Below are positions 58,838 to 63,889 of a stretch of 64,000 bases of DNA, piece after piece; the stretch's first letter is position 1, and each line of letters opens with the position of its first letter. Origin of the DNA: Bradyrhizobium retamae. GTDB taxonomy: Bacteria > Pseudomonadota > Alphaproteobacteria > Rhizobiales > Xanthobacteraceae. The notes under the pieces are model-generated. The model did no database searches and had not been told where the DNA came from. It worked only from the letters and a program-made list of their open reading frames with translations. Both the position numbers and the translations under genes were made by a program. Where the stretch lies: assembly GCF_001440415.1 (NCBI RefSeq), contig NZ_LLYA01000079.1:1-64000 (forward strand), in the 5' to 3' direction.

Positions 58838-59263
58838 ATGGAGACGGACGCGACCTATCGCGGCACGGTCTATCCGTGGCAATGCGATCATGTCGGGCAC
58901 ATGAACATCATGTGGTATGTCGGCAAGTTCGACGAAGCGAACTGGAATCTGTTCGCCCGGCTCGGGCTGACGCCGTCGTACTTGCGCACCTCCGGCCGCG
59001 GCATGGCCGCCGTGCAGCAGAACATCACCTACAAGCGCGAAGTCCTGGCCGGCGATATCATCGAGGTCAGAAGCCAGGTGCTCGAGATTCGCGACAAGTC
59101 GATCCGCTTCGTCCACGAGATGCGTAACGCCGAAACCGGCGAAATCGCCGCGACTTGCGAATTCGTCGGCGTCCACATGGACCGGCAGGCGCGCAAGTCG
59201 ATCCCGTTCGCTCCCGTGATCCGCGACGCCGCAAGGCGGCATCTCGAACCGGCGATGGCGTGA
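58838..59263 (+). CDS. Acyl-CoA thioesterase, 4HBT hotdog family
   Basis: A 141-residue hotdog-fold thioesterase: YRGTVYPWQCDHVGHMNIMW (catalytic Asp in CDHVGHMN), KFDEANWNLFARLG, VQQNITYKREVLAGDIIEVR and TCEFVGVHMDRQARKSIPFA. It hydrolyses an acyl-CoA of unknown chain length. It is followed after three bases by a second thioesterase gene and is controlled by the divergent TetR. Confidence 0.9.
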   Translation: METDATYRGTVYPWQCDHVGHMNIMWYVGKFDEANWNLFARLGLTPSYLRTSGRGMAAVQQNITYKREVLAGDIIEVRSQVLEIRDKSIRFVHEMRNAETGEIAATCEFVGVHMDRQARKSIPFAPVIRDAARRHLEPAMA

Positions 59264-59266
59264 CCC

Positions 59267-59752
59267 ATGCCGCGCTTCGAGCCGAAGAACCCGGATTATC
59301 GCGCGGTCGCCACCGCCATGTTCGAGCAGCAGCGGGCGATGAAGACGCTGGGCATTTCGATCGCGCGGCTGGAGCCGGGCGAGGTCGATCTGGCGATGGA
59401 CTATTCGGCCGATCTCACCCAGCAGCACGGCTTCATACACGCCGGCATCATCACGGCGGCGCTCGACAATGCCTGCGGCGTCGCCGCCTTCACGCTGATG
59501 CCGCCGGGTGCGGGAATTCTCACCGTGGAATTCAAGACCAACTTGCTGGCGCCGGCGCGCGGCGAGCGGTTCGCGTTCCGCGCCAGCGTCGTCAAGCCCG
59601 GCCGCACGATGACGGTGTGCGAGGGCCGCGCCTATGCGGCGGATGACGGCAAGGAGACGCTGATCGCGACCATGACCGGCACGCTGATGGCGCTGACCAG
59701 CCGCGAGGGCGCTTCGCCGGAGAAGGGGGTACGTCGTAGCCTGATCGGCTGA
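59267..59752 (+). CDS. PaaI family thioesterase
   Basis: A 161-residue hotdog protein: VATAMFEQQRAMKTLGISIA, LTQQHGFIHAGIITAALDNA with the HGG-like H-G-F-x-H-A-G active-site helix, CGVAAFTLMP and TVEFKTNLLAPARGERF. PaaI proteins cleave (phenyl)acetyl-CoA-like thioesters. It is the second gene of the operon and differs in subgroup from its neighbour, so the two probably act on different acyl groups. Confidence 0.92.
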   Translation: MPRFEPKNPDYRAVATAMFEQQRAMKTLGISIARLEPGEVDLAMDYSADLTQQHGFIHAGIITAALDNACGVAAFTLMPPGAGILTVEFKTNLLAPARGERFAFRASVVKPGRTMTVCEGRAYAADDGKETLIATMTGTLMALTSREGASPEKGVRRSLIG

Positions 59753-59840
59753 TGTGTATTGCAGGGCAGCTTTGTGCTGCGGCCATGGCGATCTGCAGAA
59801 AATCCTTCTATGGTCGCGCCGTGCAACAGAGTCTTTCAAC

Positions 59841-60629
59841 TTGATCATCTCCACCGCGCAAGGCGTGCTGGGACTGGCGTCGGGGATGCTGGTCGGGTTC
59901 TCGCTTGGCCTGGTCGGCGGCGGCGGCTCGATCCTGGCGGTGCCGCTGATGGTCTATGTGGTCGGCGTGGCGGAGCCCCATATGGCGATCGGCACCAGCG
60001 CGATTGCGGTGGCCGCCAACGCCGCGCTCAACCTGTCCAACCATGCGCGCGGCGGCACCGTGATCTGGTCCTGCGCGCTGATCTTCGCCGCGGCCGGCAT
60101 GGCCGGCGCCTTCGGCGGCTCGATCCTCGGCAAGATGATGGACGGTCAGCGGCTATTGGCGCTCTTCGCGCTGGTGATGATCGTGATCGCGCTGTTGATG
60201 CTGAAGACGCGCTCGCGGATCGGCCTGCCTGACGTCAAGGTCTCGATGGCGAACATGCCGGCTATCGTCGGCCTCGGCCTCGCCACCGGAACGGTGTCGG
60301 GATTTTTCGGCATCGGCGGCGGATTCCTGGTCGTGCCGGCCCTGATGCTGGCGACCGGCATGCCGATCATGAACGCGGTCTCCTCCTCGCTGGTCGCGGT
60401 TACCGCGTTCGGCCTGACCACCGCCGCCAGCTATGCCTGGTCCGGGCTGGTGTCGTGGGCATTGGCGGGACTGTTCGTGGCGGGCGGCCTCGCCGGCGGA
60501 CTGGCCGGCACGCGTTCGGCGCGGCACCTCGCCGAGCGCCGCGGCGCGCTCAACATCGTGTTCGCCGTGGTCATTATTGCCGTGGCGCTCTATATGCTGG
60601 CGCGTAACATATCCCTATCTCAACCGTAG
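59841..60629 (+). CDS. TauE/SafE family sulfite/anion exporter
   Basis: About 262 residues with eight membrane segments in two repeats, each starting with a Gly-rich GxGGG-type motif: GMLVGFSLGLVGGGGSILAV and TGTVSGFFGIGGGFLVVPAL. SAIAVAANAALNLSNHARGG and SSSLVAVTAFGLTTAASYAW follow at equivalent places. The family exports sulfite or organosulfonates. The start is unclear: TTG 59841 (MIISTAQGVLGLASG) fits homologues best; the reading frame is open to ATG 59754. Confidence 0.88.
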   Translation: MIISTAQGVLGLASGMLVGFSLGLVGGGGSILAVPLMVYVVGVAEPHMAIGTSAIAVAANAALNLSNHARGGTVIWSCALIFAAAGMAGAFGGSILGKMMDGQRLLALFALVMIVIALLMLKTRSRIGLPDVKVSMANMPAIVGLGLATGTVSGFFGIGGGFLVVPALMLATGMPIMNAVSSSLVAVTAFGLTTAASYAWSGLVSWALAGLFVAGGLAGGLAGTRSARHLAERRGALNIVFAVVIIAVALYMLARNISLSQP

Positions 60630-61406: not shown

Positions 61407-61613
61407 CTATCGCGACGAGAGCTTGACCCAATCGTCGTGGGCGCGCGTTTTCAGCGCCTTCCAGTCCTCTGCCACGACATCCCAGTTGACGAGGGTGCGA
61501 CTAGCCTGCGCGACCTGGCCGCTGGCGACACTCGACGTCCGCATGGAATCGTAGACATAGACGCCGAAAACCAGCAGCAGCGCGCCCAAAATCATTCCGA
61601 CAAACGTCCGCAT
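61407..61613 (-). CDS. Small single-span membrane protein under an EcfG promoter
   Basis: A 68-residue protein: MRTFVGMILGALLLVFGVYV (membrane segment or uncleaved signal) and a soluble part TLVNWDVVAEDWKALKTRAH, rich in Trp and charge. A very good ribosome binding site (GGAGG, seven bases) precedes ATG 61613, and an EcfG promoter lies just upstream (61638-61662), giving an 18-nt leader. Unknown function; general stress induction is the inference. Confidence 0.78.
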   Translation of the reverse strand: MRTFVGMILGALLLVFGVYVYDSMRTSSVASGQVAQASRTLVNWDVVAEDWKALKTRAHDDWVKLSSR

Positions 61614-61667: not shown

Positions 61668-62525
61668 CTAGGATCGCGCCTTCGGCGGCGCCGGGCGGGG
61701 AGCCGAGGCGGAAGGTGCTGCCGCCCCGGTGGCTGTCGCCAGGTTGAGCGACTTCAATTCATCGGGCTTGAACACGAAAAGCTTGTCGTGCGGCGTCTCC
61801 ATCGCATGTACCCAGACCTGGAGGTTCACGCCCATATCGCCGAGATAGCGTTGGCACCGCGCCGAGACATTTTGCGCCACGTTCATCTCGTCGCGGGGCA
61901 GGCCGGCTGTGGTGCCCAGCGCCGCCACCTGATGCACGCCGACGATGGCCTTGTCGCCGACCCGGCGCTCGACGCCGCCGGCGAACATCAGCGGGCAGGA
62001 TGAGGCGCAGTATTTGCCAGCCTCGATCTCGGTCGCGAAACTACGCTCTCGAATGAGTCGTCCCATCGCCAACGCATCGCTGACCGAGCCGCCCGGCGAG
62101 TTGAGCACCACCGTCTTGATGTAATCGCCGCGCTTGGCGACCTCGGCTGCAAACGCATCCGAAATCCCTGGCGTAATGGTGCCGATCGCCATCAGCTTGC
62201 CGCCACCCACCAGTTCGAAGGTCATGGGCTCGGCCATCGCGCCATCTGCTTGCGGTCGCGGCGTCAGGCGCTTGTTGTCGCCGGGTGCCAGCGGCGCCAG
62301 AATGGATGGCACCGCATTGGGAAGGTTCAGCGAAGGCGTGTCCTGCCTAAGCTCGACGGCAGGATCAGCAGTGCCGATCCATCCATTCATGCCGGCGAGG
62401 TCGGCCGCCAGTACAGCGATCGTGATCGTGACGATGCTGCGGAACAGCCAGCGCAGGATCGCTTCGTCCGGATTGGCCGCAAGAAAGGCTTGAACGCGCT
62501 GTTGAAGCGTTGCGGAGCGCTGCAT
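61668..62525 (-). CDS. Membrane-anchored ClpP/S49-like periplasmic protein (COG3904-like)
   Basis: A 285-residue protein. One membrane anchor (WLFRSIVTITIAVLAADLAG, about residues 26-45) is followed by a linker and a ClpP/crotonase-type domain: TVVLNSPGGSVSDALAMGRL (oxyanion SPGG, about 142), AGKYCASSCPLMFAGG (serine between two cysteines, about 172) and AIVGVHQVA (histidine, about 196). The C-terminus is Ala/Pro-rich. It is probably a periplasmic serine hydrolase or an inactive relative. It starts eight bases after the upstream membrane-protein gene, so the two form an operon. Confidence 0.78.
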   Translation of the reverse strand: MQRSATLQQRVQAFLAANPDEAILRWLFRSIVTITIAVLAADLAGMNGWIGTADPAVELRQDTPSLNLPNAVPSILAPLAPGDNKRLTPRPQADGAMAEPMTFELVGGGKLMAIGTITPGISDAFAAEVAKRGDYIKTVVLNSPGGSVSDALAMGRLIRERSFATEIEAGKYCASSCPLMFAGGVERRVGDKAIVGVHQVAALGTTAGLPRDEMNVAQNVSARCQRYLGDMGVNLQVWVHAMETPHDKLFVFKPDELKSLNLATATGAAAPSASAPRPAPPKARS

Positions 62526-62533
62526 CGCGACAC

Positions 62534-63889
62534 CTACTTGGTATGCCGCGCCGACGATAGCGAGGTAACGTTTTCGTCCGTCTCCGCCGCCTGATCGGCC
62601 ACAGGCTCTTCAGCGGGCGCCTTGGTCCCGGCCTCACGTGGCGCCACCTGGCGCGCGTCCTCGACTTCGCGGGCCATCTGCAGGGCCGCAACCAGTTCGC
62701 CCGCGGTCATGTCAGAGGCGCTGAACGCGGGAAGCCCCTCGCGCCGGATCGCGGCGTGCACGACACACAGGATCAAGACCAGCACCGCCGGCATCAGGTC
62801 GATCGAGATCGCGCCGGCCCAACTCGGAATGAAATCGCCGGCATAACGAAGCACGGCTTCGGCGGGCGACATGGTCTGGAATCGGGCCGGCTCGACCCGT
62901 GGCAAAGCCAGGATCTTGTCGGCCGCCCCGGCGAGCGAAGCCGCCTGTGTCGCGATGGAGCCCTCGACCTTGCCGACCACGGCAGTCTGCCGGTCGGCGA
63001 GATCGGCAGTGCGGCCGCCCGCCGCGGGCGCGATGAAGCCTGACGACAGCGACGCCGCCGCGCGCTTGACGGCGGGTGCCACCGAGGTCTGCTGCAGGTT
63101 GGCGATCACGCCGGAGAGCGCCAGCGATTCGGTCGCAAAGGCGTCGCTGCGCGTCGAGATCGGCCCCCGGTCGGAAATCAATTCGCGCATCTTCGCCAAA
63201 TGCTTGCCGCCCTGCTCGAACAGGGTCGAGACGCGCTTCGCCGACGCCTGGACTTCCTGCCCGAGACTGTCGAGCTGTCCGGACATCTGCGTCAGAAGCT
63301 GCACGACGGTACCGGATCCGGAGGTGCCGGTCAGCGATCCCGCGCGTTCGGCGTCGGCCAGTTTCGCAAACCGGGATGACGCCAACTGAATATCAGGCAA
63401 CAGCCCCTGCGCGGCGATAGCATTGCTGTTGGCGGTATCGAGGTCGCGGGTGTAATTCTGCACGGTGATGGCGAGATGCTGCTGGATCGCGGCCGCGCCT
63501 GCCAGCGCCGAAGCGTTGAGCCAGGATGACATCGCCACGATCATCAGCGAGCCCAGCAGCATGCAGCCGAACATCAGGCCGCGGCCGGTGCGGTCCACCA
63601 CGTGGGGCATGAACTGCATCAGGAAAATCCAGAAGGCGTAAATGCCGACCGATACGGCAACCGAATAGATCACGGCGGCGAAGAACACCGTGGTCGGATC
63701 GCCGTTGAGCAGTTCGCGGACGCCGAGATAGGTGTAGACGCCGGCGGCCAGCGCGAGAATCGCAGTCGTCAGCTTCAGCGTGACTTCAAGGCGCGTGACG
63801 CCTTTCGACAGCAGCAGCGAATTGGAGGAAGGCGCGTTGGAGGCAGGCGTGGTGGCCGCGGGAGCGCCGAGGCCGGAGTTCGAGGGCAT
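62534..63889 (-). CDS. Uncharacterised four-span membrane protein with large periplasmic coiled-coil domain
   Basis: A 451-residue protein. The N-terminal about 30 residues are Ser/Ala/Asn-rich. Three membrane segments follow (TTAILALAAGVYTYLGV; FFAAVIYSVAVSVGIYAFWI; LMFGCMLLGSLMIVAMSSWL), then a 215-residue helical region predicted periplasmic (IQQHLAITVQNYTRDLDTAN, LTQMSGQLDSLGQEVQASAK), a fourth segment (ISIDLMPAVLVLILCVVHAA) and a cytoplasmic acidic tail. No family is recognised. AGGATA-type ribosome binding site before ATG 63889. Operon with the ClpP-like gene. Confidence 0.8.
   Translation of the reverse strand: MPSNSGLGAPAATTPASNAPSSNSLLLSKGVTRLEVTLKLTTAILALAAGVYTYLGVRELLNGDPTTVFFAAVIYSVAVSVGIYAFWIFLMQFMPHVVDRTGRGLMFGCMLLGSLMIVAMSSWLNASALAGAAAIQQHLAITVQNYTRDLDTANSNAIAAQGLLPDIQLASSRFAKLADAERAGSLTGTSGSGTVVQLLTQMSGQLDSLGQEVQASAKRVSTLFEQGGKHLAKMRELISDRGPISTRSDAFATESLALSGVIANLQQTSVAPAVKRAAASLSSGFIAPAAGGRTADLADRQTAVVGKVEGSIATQAASLAGAADKILALPRVEPARFQTMSPAEAVLRYAGDFIPSWAGAISIDLMPAVLVLILCVVHAAIRREGLPAFSASDMTAGELVAALQMAREVEDARQVAPREAGTKAPAEEPVADQAAETDENVTSLSSARHTK

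Follow-up and report, generated by a model that had tools for sequence, protein, structure and literature searches.

Two adjacent genes, encoding a predicted inner-membrane protein (P0002) and a membrane-anchored relative of ClpP (P0001), behave as one conserved two-gene unit, as supported by their constant pairing, order, and strand across genomes. From comparison of their sequences, the pair points to a putative, unstudied cell-envelope enzyme complex in soil, plant-symbiotic, and marine bacteria. The window, by which we mean the whole stretch of 64,000 nucleotides analyzed, lies on contig C79 of an 8.47-Mb genome, and the nearest named relatives at the P0002-P0001 locus belong to Bradyrhizobium (96% identity). 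A preliminary description of this DNA had reported two genes eight bases apart, the second carrying SPGG, CASSC, and VHQ motifs; both open reading frames (ORFs), the gap, and the three motifs are confirmed:

62534-63889, minus strand: P0002, 451 aa, predicted inner-membrane protein with a C-terminal tail
P0002 residues within 34-63 (weak), 68-86, 104-122, and 359-377: predicted spans, from hydropathy and the model
62526-62533, minus strand: 8 bases between P0002 and P0001
61668-62525, minus strand: P0001, 285 aa, ClpP-like, predicted anchor at residues 23-41
P0001 residues 143-146, 173-177, and 197-199: SPGG, CASSC (C173-x-S175-x-C177-P178), and VHQ (H198), read from the sequence
61407-61613, minus strand: ORF of 68 aa, hydrophobic at its N terminus and assigned to no family, downstream of P0001, a doubtful member of the unit
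L036:4009-6150, past the window end, minus strand: genes for an alpha/beta hydrolase and a trypsin-PDZ (HtrA-like) protease, both upstream of the pair and sharing its strand

An AGGTG sequence overlaps the P0002 stop codon immediately ahead of the P0001 ATG, which makes it likely that translation of the two genes is coupled. The 68-aa ORF was matched by tblastn in 17 of 22 loci, no more than 100 bases from the P0001 stop in 16 of the 17, and was not seen in the Sinorhizobium meliloti pair neighborhood inspected. No sigma-70-like site was found in 8 kb, a result within the shuffled range. Elsewhere in the window, two adjoining hotdog thioesterase genes whose best Pfam families differ lie at 58838-60629 on the plus strand, and a TauE-type transporter gene follows.

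With P0002 as the query, 32 distinct genomes gave a strong profile match (at least 535 bits), comprising 5 from the class sample, 12 further genomes from the family, and 15 further genomes from the phylum. P0001 was found beside P0002 in the fetched flanks of all 32, and in each of the 51 loci with both genes P0002 lies upstream of P0001 and shares its strand (a P0001 C-terminus found more than once was counted a single time, and two S. meliloti strains were retained), so that the co-occurrence and gene-order check suggested in the preliminary description comes out in favor of the pair. P0001 as the query gave 22 named loci, and P0002 stands directly before P0001 in 21, in L008 as broken pieces; in the remaining one, L021, the contig starts inside P0001. 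At L008:4625-5973, in a Bradyrhizobium assembly, the P0002 frame is in pieces and the P0001 frame is open, reflecting assembly error or decay.

The window's genome being counted each time, P0002 was matched in at least 10 of 385 class-sample genomes when searched as a single protein (E ≤ 1e-3), in at least 8 of the 385 as a profile (E ≤ 1e-5), in at least 13 of 100 genomes of the family, and in at least 19 of 398 phylum-sample genomes. All 19 of the latter belong to one class, a figure to be read with the share of the 398 outside that class left unstated. A reverse search of the same 100 family genomes found strong P0001 matches in the identical 13 that carry P0002. The candidates scored per genome numbered at most 4 for P0002 in the class and phylum samples, 17 for P0002 in the family, and 25 for P0001 in the family, with misses possible. 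Any P0001 match was detected in 20 genomes of a class sample of 142; only the window's genome and G015 gave strong ones, and the other 18 gave weak matches of at most 98.6 bits. The distribution is patchy: three further genomes of the genus, within the family sample, have neither gene. Some pairs are plasmid-borne. P0001 has matches in 333 plasmid records and P0002 in 139, with pairing checked in four records (L046, L047, L169, and L170).

The two proteins gave a mirror-tree correlation of 0.96, calculated without a control, and P0002 is the more conserved (mean pairwise difference 0.42 versus 0.56). Alignments of 52 P0001 and 50 P0002 sequences, the latter leaving out the broken frame of L008, contain 19 invariant and 86 near-invariant columns, more than expected by chance. 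The outer neighbors of the pair vary between Bradyrhizobium-type, S. meliloti, and Phaeobacter loci. At Bradyrhizobium-type loci, tblastn detected the upstream alpha/beta hydrolase in 16 of 22 fetched flanks (reduced in two of them to fragments at the end of a contig or flank) and the trypsin-PDZ protease in 14. In S. meliloti, response-regulator genes are followed by the pair and then by an ion transporter gene on the other strand, as judged from annotation and by eye, and in Phaeobacter gallaeciensis the pair is flanked by an MgtC/SapB gene and a lytic transglycosylase gene, with STAS and ATP-binding genes beyond. The constancy of the pair amid changing neighbors provides the strongest evidence that the two genes function jointly.

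By sequence comparison, P0001 is a ClpP relative, homologous over the catalytic domain. A profile of 17 P0001s searched against PDB sequences matched ClpP best (3q7h, E 7.4e-6), and profile-profile alignment with 12 ClpPs from the window's genome and 11 relatives covered 156 columns with a probability of 94.5 and E 7.5e-8, values that apply to that single comparison. Pfam CLP_protease was matched by 7 of the 17 members (E ≤ 0.1; best 2.3e-6), the window P0001 alone falling under the cut-off (11.7 versus 20.2 bits), and the annotation of one copy in Phaeobacter reads "ATP-dependent Clp protease proteolytic subunit." The label "ClpP/S49-like" in the preliminary description therefore holds in its first half. 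Its second half was rejected: the alignment with peptidase S49 (SppA) spanned only 19 columns around SPGG, with a probability of 6, when P0001 was compared with 12 S49 proteins from the window's and related genomes (12 of 13 fetched loci, one lost to a motif filter). Ser-Lys chemistry is the mark of S49, and P0001 has an invariant His as in ClpP. Matches to phage families were weak (PHROG 26024 "protease," E 5.8e-7; head-maturation families from 5.3e-4; the NCBIfam head-maturation ClpP-related family, E 4.6e-5, 23.4 bits against a cut-off of 120), and no phage genes were noticed around the paired loci; we read these matches as a shared ClpP fold and set aside a phage-protease identity.

In the profile-profile alignment, S175 and H198 fall on the nucleophile Ser and the His of ClpP, respectively. 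Both are invariant in all 52 P0001s, together with D42 at the edge of the anchor, G115, G120, S143, G145, G146, C173, C177, P178, G184, R187, G196, Q199, Q218, G232, A241, and T244, and positions 174 and 176 vary. The catalytic Asp of ClpP falls on L249 of P0001, a position that is hydrophobic in 51 of 52 sequences (36 L, 11 I, 3 M, 1 V) and a gap in one. At position 150, all 52 carry an acid (49 D, 3 E), and no other acid of the soluble domain is retained in every sequence; D150 is one candidate replacement for the missing Asp. The simplest marker of the paired type is Pro178, present in 52 of 52 paired P0001s versus 1 of 28 unpaired relatives, all retrieved with a search profile built from paired rows. 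Hydropathy averaged over 51 aligned sequences gave one segment above 1.5, the predicted anchor, in line with the anchored protein described earlier; a single N-terminal hydrophobic segment followed by the enzyme domain suggests that this domain is periplasmic. The structural model of P0001 is poor (mean pLDDT 55.8). Foldseek returned no match for it at E ≤ 0.001, the best being ClpP and crotonase-type enzymes from 2.7e-3, and its best structural Z of 7.9 (CtpA), tied with ClpP at 7.2, is within the range that unrelated folds can give. One P0001, at L013:6001-6792, has lost about 20 residues directly following T244.

It is common to find weaker P0001 relatives unaccompanied by P0002, as the larger number of plasmid records matched by P0001 also indicates, and weak P0002 relatives likewise occur without P0001, so that neither fold is tied to the pair alone. 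Two weaker P0001 relatives are encoded by the window's genome itself, one on C179 and one on C135, and the stretches fetched around them contain no P0002; the one on C179, at L048:2383-6662, is a ClpP-like CxSxC protein encoded after a 1124-aa protein with Sel1 repeats. A FastTree phylogeny of 81 sequences (52 paired P0001s, 23 of the 28 unpaired relatives, and 6 of the 12 ClpPs, after two matches of the ClpP search and three partial rows were dropped) placed 7 unpaired rows inside the paired P0001s with support of 0.175, and the ClpPs formed no clade in the rooted tree; for these reasons, we do not claim a clade of paired P0001s. COG3904, a name for the wider P0001 family, was not met in the literature search.

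Hydropathy averaged over 51 aligned P0002 sequences gave three separate segments above 1.5, corresponding to the second, third, and fourth predicted spans. The first span is weaker, with hydropathy of 0.9 to 1.5 in the window protein, and lies inside a predicted helix at 21-61. The model is moderate and almost all helix (mean pLDDT 63.6); between spans 3 and 4 it predicts a mostly helical domain at about 126-355 (about 220 residues), with blocks between 131 and 340 mostly at pLDDT 70-91 and dips to 53-63. The best structural matches of this domain are four-helix bundles, with a Z of 13.8 that is no more than helical models commonly give, and the model suggests a helical bundle rather than a coiled coil. 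Of the "four-span coiled-coil" protein in the preliminary description, the four spans thus stand as three clear and one weaker prediction, and "coiled coil" may be better replaced by "helical bundle." Foldseek found no match for the P0002 model at E ≤ 0.001, and similarities to designed bundles, ClyA, and BAR domains were taken as a common helical arrangement and not as kinship. The near-invariant stretches fall where span 3 ends and around span 4, a pattern suggestive of packing within the membrane or of contacts there with a partner. No Pfam family reached its cut-off in the window P0002, four paired relatives, or five weak relatives, and P0002 had no NCBIfam or PHROGs match at E ≤ 1. DUF4407, which is similar in layout, was rejected as its family after giving no match at E ≤ 1e-5 in 13 genomes, the window's genome counted.

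Weak P0002 matches in five class-sample genomes (G097, G124, G107, G148, and G058) had no P0001 seen beside them, an absence that is not judgeable in G124, where the contig stops 117 bases past the weak P0002 gene. G843 carries a second, weak P0002 copy (L166) without P0001 in the fetched flank. Integrases occur near the weak relatives of L041 and L043. At L033:1191-3381 (G107:C29), a weak P0002 relative overlaps a gene whose product has a HEIGH motif and a hydrophobic N terminus, is weakly M48-like (Pfam E 0.0034, under the cut-off), and has relatives in 9 plasmid records; the annotation of the one such neighborhood inspected (L168) names no P0002-like gene. L033, a single case, would fit a P0002-like family whose members are partners for anchored peptidases.

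An orthologue of P0001 appears to have been studied in S. meliloti, as far as excerpts of the sources cited here report. The ORF adjoining the P0002 orthologue on pSymB of S. meliloti 1021 encodes 267 aa if read from the earliest possible start and 243 aa if read from an internal ATG. SMb20360 is listed as a 243-aa protein of the Clp-protease superfamily (PMC3462710), and the neighboring tag SMb20366 is placed at about 379 kb (PMC2573895), which fits a P0001 orthologue near 371 kb; the S. meliloti records among the matches listed, strain 1021 not being one of them, have one matching place each. Because length, family, and place agree, we infer that the S. meliloti P0001 is SMb20360. This gene was disrupted and its expression measured in 2012 (PMC3462710): GUS expression was seen in nodules with each of two strains (8 of 13 and 13 of 16) and not in free-living cells, and the gene was not needed for symbiosis, plants being like those with the wild type. 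The same paper cites a signature-tagged SMb20360 mutant as being highly competitive when exposed to salt and detergent stress. Nodule expression and the mutant stress phenotype point to the envelope and to conditional use; the greater fitness of the mutant may mean either that expression is costly or that a protective protein is normally turned over. In the available parts of PMC3462710, SMb20360 appears as a lone ClpP-superfamily protein, with no mention of a membrane partner, and the matches listed in our literature search contained no text linking P0001 or SMb20360 to one. The pair had been called "undescribed," which holds for P0002 as a family without a named match and needs qualifying for P0001, given the work on SMb20360 and the Clp annotation in Phaeobacter.

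We consider it an even prospect that the unit comprises a periplasmic ClpP-fold serine hydrolase that is held in the inner membrane, has a scaffold or adaptor of its own, and acts in envelope stress. P0001 and P0002 would form one inner-membrane complex, in which P0001 would be an N-in, single-span protein with its ClpP-fold domain in the periplasm. It would act as an ATP-independent serine hydrolase, most likely a peptidase, through the Ser175-His198 pair and the SPGG loop. P0002 would be a dedicated scaffold or adaptor whose spans hold P0001 in the membrane and whose helical periplasmic domain may present substrates or gate access. The unit would remove or trim envelope proteins under stress and be dispensable in standard growth; the reported phenotype of one orthologue lends the stress role weak support. 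The interpretation offered in the preliminary description is partly supported. A bolder version, which we hold to be improbable, is that alphaproteobacteria possess a new class of ATP-independent, membrane-tethered periplasmic ClpP machine, a Ser-His enzyme switched by the cysteine pair, in which a dedicated four-span helical partner replaces the AAA+ unfoldase as both gate and substrate receptor, partners of this kind also serving other anchored peptidases on mobile elements. If the hydrolase reading is true, the pair would show how the ClpP fold is controlled without ATP in the periplasm by a non-ATPase partner, and S. meliloti and Phaeobacter would offer a simple two-gene system, one gene of which has a published expression and stress lead.

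P0001 could be a dead enzyme whose ClpP fold serves binding or oligomerization within a structural or sensing envelope complex, as the hydrophobic residue (or gap) at the catalytic Asp position and the retention of a single acid, D/E150, throughout the soluble domain would allow. However, S175, H198, and the SPGG glycines are invariant while positions 174 and 176 vary, as expected of an active site, and other serine hydrolases are known that use a Ser-His or a Ser-Lys dyad; we regard a dead enzyme as possible but doubtful. A hydrolase gated by redox state or metal is unlikely: in this reading, C173 and C177, which flank the nucleophile, would form a disulfide, or a metal site with H198, and thereby switch the enzyme according to the redox state of the periplasm. 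CxSxC is invariant in the paired-type P0001s, and tblastn detected a DsbA-like gene in the fetched flanks of 16 of 22 loci, but that gene is on the opposite strand to the pair and none was noticed in the other pair neighborhoods inspected. Of the 28 unpaired relatives, 20 share C173 and 18 share C177, which makes these cysteines a trait of the wider family, and the disulfide is shown in no structure.

Descent from, or service to, conjugation would place P0002 in a family of mating-apparatus membrane proteins; weak P0002 relatives do lie near type IV coupling proteins (T4SS-DNA_transf) in two genomes (L041:8922-13999 and L044:6562-10334, the latter with a 191-aa ORF between the two genes), and some pairs are on plasmids. 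We nevertheless think this very unlikely, since no transfer genes were noticed, from annotation or by eye, beside the paired copies in the neighborhoods inspected. The preliminary description had likened the layout to NfeD/stomatin pairs with unrelated sequences, and this view is borne out. That the unit belongs to the NfeD-stomatin system itself, its SPFH partner having diverged past recognition, would explain the same logic of an anchored ClpP-like protein adjoining a membrane partner; NfeD1b proteins have an N-terminal ClpP domain, according to excerpts of PMC2636767, and NfeD1b_N, the ClpP-like part, was matched weakly in 2 of 17 P0001s (best E 0.0031). Yet Pfam gave no SPFH/Band_7 match at E ≤ 1 in P0002, four paired relatives, or five weak relatives, the P0002 model is helical, and P0001 consists of an anchor and then a ClpP domain, with no NfeD domain matched at E ≤ 0.1 in 17 members, all of which makes such membership extremely unlikely.

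The hydrolase-and-partner reading can be set beside several known systems. ClpP (peptidase family S14) shares the homologous domain, and its SPGG loop, Ser, and His align with P0001, where they are invariant. Known ClpPs are cytoplasmic (or organellar) and operate together with an ATP-driven unfoldase, and the classical form is a soluble tetradecamer fed by an AAA+ ATPase; the predicted anchor of P0001 argues against that form. P0001 further differs in its probable periplasmic location, its CxSxC motif, its hydrophobic residue at the catalytic Asp position, and a neighbor that is P0002 and not an AAA+ ATPase. NfeD1b uses a Ser-Lys dyad. As excerpts of PMC2636767 describe them, NfeD1b-SPFH operons are likewise two-gene units of a ClpP-domain membrane protein and a membrane partner. 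Prc-NlpI and CtpA-LbcA, in which a periplasmic S41 protease works with a helical adaptor, also invite comparison, and S41 chains are among the structural matches of P0001. Their adaptors are TPR lipoproteins, however, and no PDZ match was found at E ≤ 0.1 in 17 P0001s. The pair would operate in the manner of NfeD1b-SPFH or Prc-NlpI pairs but lacks matches to the domains that define them, and its putative enzyme is a ClpP relative with a hydrophobic residue in place of the catalytic Asp; we file the pair provisionally as a variant among membrane proteases that act with a partner.
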